DNA of 55,105 bases. Source: Streptomyces alkaliterrae. Its GTDB lineage: Bacteria; Actinomycetota; Actinomycetes; Streptomycetales; Streptomycetaceae. The notes below the pieces were generated by a model that saw only the letters and a list, made by a program, of their open reading frames with translations, was not told where the DNA came from and made no database searches. Shown one piece after another: positions 11,558 through 19,992 of this stretch; the stretch's first letter is position 1, and the number at the start of each line of letters is the position of its first letter. The stretch covers positions 1 to 55,105 of the forward strand of contig NZ_VJYK02000003.1 of assembly GCF_007097205.2 (NCBI RefSeq), read 5' to 3'. The position numbers and the translations under genes were made by a program.

Positions 11558-11735
11558 AACCGGCGGTGAGAGTCTCCTGGCTCCCGGATCCGCACCTTCC
11601 CCGGTCTTCCAGCCGCCGCTCCTGGCGGATCGACCGTGACGTGTAGGGGTGTGCTCCCCGGTGACAGTGGCGGGACCGCGCCGGATTCGCACCGGCTTCC
11701 TCTCCTGCCGCCGTGATGGCTGCGGGAAGTCCACC
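11558..11735 (-). promoter_or_regulatory. Cobalamin (AdoCbl) riboswitch
   Basis: On the minus strand the aptamer hallmarks occur in order: AAGCCGGTGCGAATCCGGC (around 11681-11699), CGGTCCCGCCACTGT directly after it, a variable arm with CGCCAGGAGCGGCGG, GGAAGACCGGGGAAGG, and the B12 box GAGCCAGGAGACTCTCACCG (11564-11583). It lies 130 bases upstream of cobD and is expected to switch off the whole cob operon when adenosylcobalamin is plentiful. The outer boundaries are approximate. Confidence 0.95.
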
Positions 11736-17580: not shown

Positions 17581-17711
17581 CGTGATCACTTCCCTTCGTT
17601 GCCCACAGTGTGCCGCCGGGGTCTGACAATCCGGCCCGTCGACAAGCCCGGCCCGCCGACAAGCCCGGCAGCCCCGCCCGCCGCCGACAAAAACCGCTTG
17701 CCGTGCGCCGT

Positions 17712-17717
17712 TAGACT
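17712..17717 (+). promoter_or_regulatory. Putative -10 box for the ABC-F leader
   Basis: TAGACT fits TANNNT and ends seven bases before the ATG of the seven-codon ORF at 17725. That spacing predicts a leaderless transcript beginning at the leader ORF. No clear -35 box is seen. Confidence 0.4.
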
Positions 17718-17724
17718 GGGCCGC

Positions 17725-17748
17725 ATGGCCTACACACTCCTGCACTAG
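17725..17748 (+). CDS. Seven-codon leader ORF (MAYTLLH) upstream of the ABC-F gene
   Basis: ATG GCC TAC ACA CTC CTG CAC TAG begins seven bases after a -10-like box and ends 87 bases before the ABC-F start. Short leaders ahead of ABC-F genes can sense stalled ribosomes and relieve transcription attenuation. A GC-rich hairpin follows at 17763-17788. The arrangement suggests ribosome-mediated attenuation, but chance cannot be excluded for an ORF this short. Confidence 0.45.
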   Translation: MAYTLLH

Positions 17749-17762
17749 TCGACGACGTACCC

Positions 17763-17788
17763 CACCGCCGCCCCTCCGGCCGGCGGTG
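17763..17788 (+). terminator. Hairpin between leader ORF and ABC-F gene (possible attenuator)
   Basis: Perfect 8-base inverted repeat CACCGCCG / CGGCGGTG with a 10-base loop, inside the transcribed leader. Streptomyces terminators often lack a U-tract, so it could act as an attenuator or simply structure the leader. Confidence 0.4.
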
Positions 17789-17835
17789 CGCGCCAGTCGC
17801 CCCCTTCCCGCGTACGTCATGTCCAGGAGAACCAC

Positions 17836-19434
17836 GTGATCACCGCCACCGGTGTCGAGCTGCGCGCCGGCGCCCGCGTCCTCATCGAGTCCGCCACCTT
17901 CCGGGTCTCCCGGGGCGACCGCATCGGCCTCGTCGGCCGCAACGGCGCCGGCAAGACGACCCTCACCAAGTGCCTCGCCGGAGAGGGCGTTCCGGCGGCC
18001 GGCGCCATCACCCGCGGCGGCGACGTCGGCTATCTGCCGCAGGACCCGCGGACCGGCGACCTCGACGTGCTCGCCAGGGACCGCATCCTCTCCGCGCGCG
18101 GTCTGGACGTCGTGCTGCGCAAGATGCGGGAGAACGAGGACCGCATGGCCGGCGGCCAGGGTGCGACGCGCGAGCGGGCGATGCGCAAGTACGAGCGGCT
18201 GGAGACGGAGTTCCTGACCAAGGGCGGCTATGCGGCGGAGGCCGAGGCGGCGACCATCGCGGCCAGCCTGGGCCTGCCCGACCGGGTGCTCGGCCAGCCG
18301 CTGAACACCCTCTCCGGCGGTCAGCGCCGACGGGTGGAGCTGGCCCGCATCCTCTTCTCCGACGCCGACTACCTGCTGCTCGACGAGCCGACCAACCACC
18401 TGGACGCCGACTCGATCGTCTGGCTGCGGGACTTCCTCAAGACCTACCGCGGCGGCCTGATCGTCATCTCCCACGACATCGACCTCGTGGAGACGGTGGT
18501 CAACAAGGTCTTCTACCTGGACGCCAACCGGGCCTGCATCGACCAGTACAACATGGGCTGGAAGCAGTACCTGACGCAGCGCGAGGCGGACGAGAAGCGC
18601 CGCAAGCGGGAGCGGGCGAACGCGGAGAAGAAGGCGGCGGCGCTGTCCGCGCAGGCCGACAAGATGCGCGCGAAGGCGACCAAGGCGGTGGCCGCGCAGA
18701 ACATGGCCAAGCGCGCCGAGCGGCTGCTGTCGGGGCTGGAGGAGCAGCGGCAGTCGGACAAGGTCGCCAAGCTGCGCTTCCCCGATCCGGCGCCGTGCGG
18801 GAAGACGCCGCTGATGGCCGAGGGACTGTCGAAGTCCTACGGCTCGCTGGAGATCTTCACGGACGTGGACCTGGCCGTCGACCGGGGCTCGCGGGTGGTC
18901 ATCCTCGGCCTCAACGGCGCCGGCAAGACGACGCTGCTGCGCCTGCTGGCCGGCGTCGAGGAGCCGGACACCGGCAAGGTGGTCCCCGGGCACGGCCTCA
19001 AGCTCGGCTACTACGCGCAGGAGCACGAGACGCTCGACCCCGAGCGCACTGTGCTGGAGAACATGCGCTCGGCGGCTCCCGACATGGACCTCGTCCACGT
19101 GCGCAAGGTGCTGGGCTCCTTCCTGTTCTCCGGCGACGACGTGGACAAACCGGCGGGTGTGCTCTCCGGCGGGGAGAAGACCCGGCTGGCGCTGGCCACC
19201 CTGGTGGTGTCCTCCGCGAACGTGCTGCTGCTGGACGAGCCGACGAACAACCTCGACCCGGCCAGCCGCGAGGAGATCCTGGGCGCGCTGCGGACCTTCA
19301 CCGGCGCGGTGGTGCTCGTGACGCACGACGAGGGCGCCGTCGACGCCCTCGCGCCGGAGCGGATCATCCTGCTGCCGGACGGTGTGGAGGACCTCTGGGG
19401 CCAGGACTACGCGGATCTGGTCGCGCTCGCCTGA
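17836..19434 (+). CDS. ABC-F family ribosome-associated ATPase
   Basis: A 532-residue soluble protein with two ABC domains and no membrane segments. Domain 1: Walker A GRNGAGKTT (near residue 36), signature LSGGQRRR, LLLDEPTNHLD. Domain 2: GLNGAGKTT (near 358), LSGGEKTR, LLLDEPTNNLD. The domains are joined by a long Lys/Arg-rich linker (about residues 245-320) that in ABC-F proteins enters the ribosomal E site. Family members act as translation factors or protect ribosomes from antibiotics. GTG at 17836 has AGGAGAA upstream. A leader ORF and hairpin ahead of it suggest regulated expression. Whether it confers resistance cannot be told from sequence. Confidence 0.9.
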   Translation: MITATGVELRAGARVLIESATFRVSRGDRIGLVGRNGAGKTTLTKCLAGEGVPAAGAITRGGDVGYLPQDPRTGDLDVLARDRILSARGLDVVLRKMRENEDRMAGGQGATRERAMRKYERLETEFLTKGGYAAEAEAATIAASLGLPDRVLGQPLNTLSGGQRRRVELARILFSDADYLLLDEPTNHLDADSIVWLRDFLKTYRGGLIVISHDIDLVETVVNKVFYLDANRACIDQYNMGWKQYLTQREADEKRRKRERANAEKKAAALSAQADKMRAKATKAVAAQNMAKRAERLLSGLEEQRQSDKVAKLRFPDPAPCGKTPLMAEGLSKSYGSLEIFTDVDLAVDRGSRVVILGLNGAGKTTLLRLLAGVEEPDTGKVVPGHGLKLGYYAQEHETLDPERTVLENMRSAAPDMDLVHVRKVLGSFLFSGDDVDKPAGVLSGGEKTRLALATLVVSSANVLLLDEPTNNLDPASREEILGALRTFTGAVVLVTHDEGAVDALAPERIILLPDGVEDLWGQDYADLVALA

Positions 19435-19773: not shown

Positions 19774-19992
19774 GTGGCCGAGACTCTGAAGAAGGGCAGC
19801 CGGGTGACCGGCGCCGCGCGCGAGAAGCTCGCGGCTGACCTGAAGAAGAAGTACGACTCCGGTGCGAGCATCCGGGCGTTGGCCGAGGAGACCGGCCGCT
19901 CCTACGGATTTGTGCACCGGATGCTGAGCGAGTCCGGGGTGACGCTGCGAGGTCGCGGCGGAGCGACCCGGGGAAAGAAGACGGCGGCCTGA
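19774..19992 (+). CDS. gbn: Gbn-type small helix-turn-helix nucleoid-associated protein
   Basis: A 72-residue basic protein: Lys-rich start, a helix-turn-helix (KKKYDSGASIRALAEETGRS then YGFVHRMLSESG), and an Arg/Gly/Lys-rich tail. It matches the SCO1839 family described as Gbn, a GATC-binding nucleoid-associated protein affecting development. GTG at 19774 is fixed by GAGGAGG seven bases upstream. It is monocistronic, closed by a strong hairpin. GATC sites in its upstream region fit autoregulation, which is inference. Confidence 0.85.
   Translation: MAETLKKGSRVTGAAREKLAADLKKKYDSGASIRALAEETGRSYGFVHRMLSESGVTLRGRGGATRGKKTAA

Follow-up and report, generated by a model that had tools for sequence, protein, structure and literature searches.

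The window, the whole 55,105-nt stretch of Streptomyces alkaliterrae DNA that we analyzed, carries an ABC-F gene behind a short leader. An initial annotation had described this leader as a TANNNT box, an ATG 7 nt on, the peptide MAYTLLH, an 8-bp GC hairpin, and then the ABC-F gene, all of which are in the sequence. The −10 box TAGACT (17712–17717) is separated by 7 nt from the ATG at 17725, and, because of this spacing, we infer that transcription starts at the A of this ATG. The elements of the locus are the following.

17689–17693 and 17698–17701, forward strand: upstream promoter element (A-tract, 4 nt, TTGC), conserved in Streptomycetaceae.
17712–17717, forward strand: −10 box TAGACT of a putative leaderless promoter, from the sequence, the spacing in 81 loci, and S. 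lividans precedent.
17725–17748, forward strand: leaderless upstream open reading frame (uORF) ATGGCCTACACACTCCTGCACTAG, encoding MAYTLLH, stop TAG; ORF conserved in Streptomycetaceae and 13 further families.
17733–17742, forward strand: predicted anti-RBS (ribosome-binding site) strand within the uORF, from the minimum-energy fold, with pairing and covariation in relatives.
17754–17760 and 17812–17818, forward strand: inner structure of the window copy predicted by folding, GACGTAC/GTACGTC around the 8-bp hairpin.
17763–17770 and 17781–17788, forward strand: GC hairpin arms CACCGCCG and CGGCGGTG, eight perfect pairs.
17824–17829 and 17836–17838, forward strand: Shine-Dalgarno (SD) sequence CAGGAG and GTG start codon of ABC-F, the predicted masked site, from the sequence and its uORF partner.
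17836–19434, forward strand: ABC-F ribosome-protection ATPase, 532 residues, ortholog of mycobacterial OcrA (Rv1473/MAB_2736c), from NF000355 and the neighborhood.

The ABC-F protein scores 394 bits against the NCBIfam ribosomal-protection ABC-F model NF000355, just above the cut-off of 380, and its closest solved relative is PoxtA. Gene order in the window is ABC-F, an HTH_58 protein, and an enoyl-CoA hydratase, which we take to be the arrangement around Rv1473. An HTH_58 protein also follows ABC-F in both mycobacterial-type genomes that were checked (G423 and G440), and in G440 an enoyl-CoA hydratase–like protein, identified by reading its sequence, lies immediately upstream of ABC-F. The HTH_58 protein of the window (72 residues, 19777–19992, forward strand, 3′ of ABC-F) is a conserved partner, likewise found in these two genomes. 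Because of both its sequence and its neighborhood, the window gene is identified as the ortholog of mycobacterial OcrA/Rv1473. In mycobacteria, Rv1473/OcrA and MAB_2736c confer protection from linezolid and chloramphenicol and also influence macrolide susceptibility (PMC9159947, PMC13041422). Orthologs occur in 140 of the 148 genomes sampled from the class, usually as one copy per genome and with 64–92% identity, and even genomes as small as 1.2–1.4 Mb in this sample hold one. A survey of ABCF proteins defined a group restricted to actinobacteria, AAF6 (649 members), which is not one of its predicted resistance groups (PMC6723617), and we think that the window protein belongs to it. In two actinobacterial families, a paralogous ABC-F, 61–65% identical to that of the window, has a leaderless uORF of its own, MS[TL]PR[IV]S, and this peptide is conserved at the paralog loci L171, L209, L210, and L211.

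All 80 Streptomycetaceae orthologs that were fetched have a leaderless mini-ORF upstream of ABC-F, as in the window, and a TANNNT box stands 6–7 nt ahead of the start codon in 81/81 loci, window included. The mini-ORF nearly always has seven codons, with length differences that amount to whole codons (L033, L049, and L052), and encodes mostly MAILL[AV]H; the peptides include MAILLAH (29), MAILLVH (10), MANLLAD (6), MAFLLVH (5), and others. A peptide pattern search found exact MAYTLLH in only 1 of 394 family genomes, the window's own. We dropped the idea that this rarity reflects non-conservation, since a locus-based comparison shows that the window copy belongs to a conserved leader from which it has diverged; in the ABC-F tree, the locus groups with that of S. 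cacaoi (MPALLVH). Codon choice in the uORFs departs from that in the genes they precede: Leu is encoded by CTC/CTT 144 times vs. 5 for CTG, while the corresponding counts in the ABC-F genes (L002–L081), where CTG makes up about half of the Leu codons, are 2615 vs. 2841.

Several smaller features of these uORFs were also observed. Their final sense codon is CAT 65 times and CAC 9 times (14 and 496, respectively, in the ABC-F genes), and Ile is encoded by ATT 45 times and never by ATC (22 vs. 1708 in the ABC-F genes), all counted over L002–L081. The ATTAG at the uORF end is almost invariant, although it lies outside the helix described below; these rare final codons and the ATTAG may represent either slow codons or a further RNA signal. 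In three Kitasatospora loci (L061, L065, and L079), the uORF stop overlaps the SD of ABC-F (TAGGAG).

The promoters share further elements. TTGC is found 9–10 nt ahead of the −10 box, which reads TAGANT in these Streptomyces promoters, in 72 of the 81 Streptomycetaceae loci, and the A-tract is present as well in 69. This arrangement resembles a WblC site plus −35 element, but the gap to the −10 box is far shorter, since WblC promoters consist of GAAAWY, 3 nt, TKGMNN, 16–19 nt, and TANNNT (PMC7157823). A WblC/WhiB7-dependent promoter was ruled out on account of this 9- to 10-nt distance. Leaderless promoters mapped in S. lividans show the same −10-to-start spacing as seen here (PMC8079986).

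How widespread is the uORF? Defining the mini-ORF as leaderless and 2–15 codons long, we found it upstream of 51 of 125 class-wide orthologs, in 26/71 genera and 14/36 families, when dinucleotide shuffles predict 0.87 of 125 loci by chance. The reverse strand, examined for the first 90 loci, contained no leaderless mini-ORF, and the 29 EttA loci taken from this class sample had none upstream of the gene. When all genera with a leaderless RTG were counted, whatever sequence came next, an in-frame stop occurred within nine codons in 25/28 genera, compared to 3 and 2 genera for the two alternative frames, which argues that the reading frame is selected. The initial annotation had named the absence of a conserved leader ORF as grounds for rejecting its proposal and had suggested aligning leaders in search of a conserved peptide; the ORF is indeed preserved, across Streptomycetaceae and in 14 families class-wide, but the peptide is unrelated between families. 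Peptides are largely preserved inside several families and vary from one family to another (MMPVAD, M[RH][TA]PD, VLLLD, VFTAS, VIRTS, VSYYQRE, MTSAAS, and others). Since the peptide differs in this way, the uORF is unlike a classical drug-specific arrest peptide. A penultimate Ala/Ser/Thr, considered as a chloramphenicol/linezolid stall signature, was not significantly enriched (p 0.08). The remaining ~60% of the orthologs, including every mycobacterial-type locus sampled, have no such uORF, and there ABC-F follows another gene, is itself near a −10 box, or has an ordinary 5′UTR.

The GC hairpin, to which the initial annotation had drawn attention, turned out not to be generally conserved. In the window, the region after the uORF is more stable than shuffled sequences over its first 60 nt (z −2.6), and the hairpin and the GACGTAC/GTACGTC stem lengthen the structure; the fold of the 146-nt leader as a whole is not unusually stable (z −0.42). 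These elements are not preserved as such in relatives, where post-uORF hairpins are variable and on the whole no stabler than shuffles, and RNAalifold detected no conserved post-uORF hairpin in 60 Streptomyces leaders. Neither the shuffle comparison nor RNAalifold supports a post-uORF hairpin as a conserved switch. Rfam covariance models gave no match over the gathering score for the window leader and six relatives; elsewhere in the window, a cobalamin riboswitch was detected at 11570–11702 on the reverse strand (77 bits).

These results bear on the possibility that control is exerted on transcription, with a ribosome on the uORF governing a terminator/antiterminator in the leader. Such control has precedent among ABCF genes, tiaA/are5sc, lmrC, and vmlR (PMC12421871, PMC9226507), and the stable GC hairpin of the window copy would fit. 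In addition, a distant relative, L131 from family f8, has a leaderless uORF (VMLAV) directly followed by CGCCCACGGCAG-ctc-CTGCCGTGGGCG-TTTT, a perfect 12-bp GC hairpin with a T-run, so that ABC-F in this relative is predicted to lie behind a textbook transcription attenuator. The window leader, however, has no intrinsic terminator or terminator-like site between uORF and ABC-F, and with post-uORF hairpins no stabler than shuffles in most families and none conserved in Streptomyces, we consider transcription attenuation unlikely as the general explanation.

What has been preserved in evolution instead is a direct helix between uORF codons and the RBS of the downstream gene. In the minimum-energy fold of the window, CAC (17733–17735) faces the GTG start codon and CTCCTG (17737–17742) faces the SD. 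Comparison of duplex energies for matched and swapped pairs showed the uORF to be complementary to the RBS of the ABC-F gene that it precedes. When every family was represented by a single entry, the mean was −14.46 kcal/mol for matched duplexes and −10.50 kcal/mol for swapped ones (sd 0.54; p 5e-5); with a single entry per genus, the values were −13.96 vs. −10.10. No signal was obtained with reversed uORFs at the family level (p 0.27) or with the neighboring stretch −50..−26 at the genus level (p 0.90). Pre-promoter sequence also gave a weak signal against the RBS (p 0.018), and composition may therefore account for part of the pairing effect. The pairing is also found within Streptomycetaceae (p 5e-5), but the signal weakens to p 0.02 within Streptomyces, once Kitasatospora is removed.

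The pairing sequences themselves are unrelated between families, for example CCGTGGC/GCCACGG (f19), ACTCCCG/CGGGAGT (f17), GCTCGAC/GTCGAGC (f7), and GGCGAGC/GCTCGCC (f12). In Streptomyces, AUGG..CA..CUCC pairs with GGAG..UG..CCGU, a helix spanning both the SD and the start codon, and in Kitasatospora the first seven uORF bases, AUGGCUG, pair with CAGCCAU across the ABC-F start codon. Given no hint, RNAalifold predicted this uORF:RBS helix and nothing else from the 60 Streptomyces leaders. Helix cells are paired in 94% of cases, vs. 30–44% in slid versions, and double changes number 22 vs. 7.3 in shuffles. Pair 6:100 of the alignment is C-G in 36 leaders, A-U in 16, and U-A in 1; the wobble base of Ala-2 forms one side of this pair, and a silent codon change thus tracks a base beside the SD. 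On the ABC-F gene tree, this silent covariation corresponds to three concordant independent switches, none discordant, and one unchanged, which is too few to reach significance by itself.

We also modelled how far the RBS would be released if the uORF were masked. In a typical Streptomyces leader, the predicted cost of opening the RBS falls from ~11 to ~6 kcal/mol. At the family level, the modelled gain exceeds that with shuffled uORFs (p 0.011), with several families showing none, and release in the window is modest, from 9.1 to 8.2 or 6.4 kcal/mol. The initial proposal of ribosome-mediated attenuation of ABC-F can thus be retained for the uORF, whose layout and frame hold class-wide, but the switch has to be relocated from the GC hairpin to the uORF:RBS helix.

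Taken together, the mini-ORF, its frame, its pairing, and its covariation, each evident from sequence comparison, suggest that ABC-F is probably controlled by a translational attenuator in which a leaderless uORF acts largely independently of its peptide. Transcription would start at the A of the uORF ATG, and the first ~24 nt of the mRNA would be at once a leaderless mini-ORF and an antisense of the ABC-F RBS. With the uORF free or quickly translated, the 5′ end would pair with the SD/start-codon region and keep ABC-F translation low. A peptidyl-transferase inhibitor, or another translation stress, would park a 70S ribosome on the start codon or elsewhere among the few codons of the uORF, where it would cover the 5′ strand, release the RBS, and allow the ribosome-protection ATPase to be made; both the blocking of the RBS in the cell and the induction by drugs are what we infer from this arrangement. 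Since the uORF is the very strand that would fold onto the RBS, a ribosome stuck there would most likely switch ABC-F on. The peptide would matter little because the ORF is so short that a ribosome at any position on it covers the pairing strand, and this would explain why ORF and pairing, but not peptide, are conserved across families.

The uORF might alternatively act by translational coupling or constitutive tuning, its translation opening or reloading the RBS without any drug sensing. The lack of peptide conservation and the Kitasatospora stops that overlap the SD are compatible with this, but the other uORF stops lie mostly ~50–120 nt upstream of the start codon, which is far for reinitiation, and a plain SD would be enough for constant expression, yet a masking helix is maintained; we regard this reading as improbable, slightly more so than transcription attenuation. 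Far less credible is that ATG and stop are by-products of a plain 5′ hairpin masking the RBS. The pairing of the Streptomyces 5′ AUGG with the start-codon region would indeed explain part of the sequence without translation, but not the frame-specific stops, the whole-codon length changes, or a start codon placed exactly 6–7 nt past TANNNT in 14 families. The least credible is an amino-acid attenuator in which the Streptomyces uORF senses charged tRNA through its Leu/Ile codons. Three codons of MAILLAH specify branched-chain residues, and S. lividans has leaderless leader peptides of this type (PMC8079986), but a branched-chain run is missing from other families (MMPVAD, MRTPD, VTSTH, and MTSAAS), and the downstream gene is not biosynthetic.

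Because no peptide is shared between the families, we favor an attenuator that senses ribosome occupancy as such over one with a drug-specific arrest peptide. It is tempting to extend this to the whole class, a generalization that we hold only tentatively and judge a little short of an even call: the mRNA 5′ end would combine start codon, mini-ORF, and anti-RBS, ABC-F would be turned on by any 70S parked on the first codons, with no need for a specific nascent peptide, and many actinobacterial families would have retained the device despite continual rewriting of its sequence.

The open literature that we searched contains no report of a uORF on ocrA/Rv1473 orthologs. As far as this literature shows, three aspects are new: 1) the combination of a uORF with an OcrA gene, 2) a mini-ORF that is itself the anti-RBS from the first mRNA bases, and 3) conservation of ORF and pairing over 14 families without conservation of peptide. 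Nearly all members of the class have an OcrA-type ABC-F protein, and in mycobacteria these proteins are the basis of intrinsic tolerance to linezolid and chloramphenicol, but the papers found give no description of how their level is controlled in other actinobacteria; the leader offers a concrete, testable switch for it. It would also be an RNA device whose sensor may be leaderless initiation itself. More generally, uORF searches based on peptide conservation can miss regulators that keep ORF and pairing but not peptide.

The mechanism resembles the classical translational attenuators of ermC and cat-86, in which a leader-stalled ribosome frees the sequestered RBS of a drug-resistance gene, as proposed here. 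Unlike here, those leaders are SD-led and have a specific stall site, and their masking strand is formed by the 3′ part of the leader or located beyond it, not at the mRNA 5′ end. Among ABCF genes, uORF control is an established strategy (PMC12421871, PMC9226507, PMC10201436), and the OcrA leaders show its hallmarks: a ribosome-protection ABCF gene downstream, a conserved short uORF (81/81 Streptomycetaceae loci and 51/125 class-wide), and a leader structure predicted to be switchable by a ribosome on the uORF, with release not in every family; a conserved nascent-peptide motif, as expected of a drug-specific arrest peptide, is not common to the families. In C. difficile cplR, with the uORF MRI, translational and transcriptional attenuation are combined (PMC10201436). 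As in cplR, a ribosome-protection ABCF gene has a very short uORF ahead of it, the mechanism includes control of the RBS, and the uORF consensus varies among related ABCF genes, but cplR belongs to a different ABCF subfamily, ARE1 (PMC10201436), and, in contrast to it, the OcrA-type mini-ORF is predicted to start at the mRNA 5′ end, to mask the RBS itself, and is kept over 14 families without a common peptide. Uor​F-mediated, ribosome-dependent control of an ABCF resistance gene is also shared with tiaA, are5sc, lmrC, and vmlR, of which tiaA and are5sc are Streptomyces genes with 5′UTRs of 194 and 232 nt (PMC12421871, PMC8546547, PMC9226507). These four have long 5′UTRs, uORFs with ribosome-binding sites, and a terminator/antiterminator, whereas the leaders described here are leaderless at the uORF and have no general terminator. 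The amino-acid attenuators of S. lividans likewise use short leaderless ORFs to control the next gene, but their leader peptides are rich in the sensed codon, have 12–29 codons, and lie upstream of amino-acid genes (PMC8079986). Finally, the actinobacterial uORF of whiB7/wblC (cited in PMC10727445 and PMC7157823) also senses ribosome-targeting drugs to drive resistance gene expression, but the gene behind it encodes a transcription factor, and its leader is long and contains a Rho-independent terminator.
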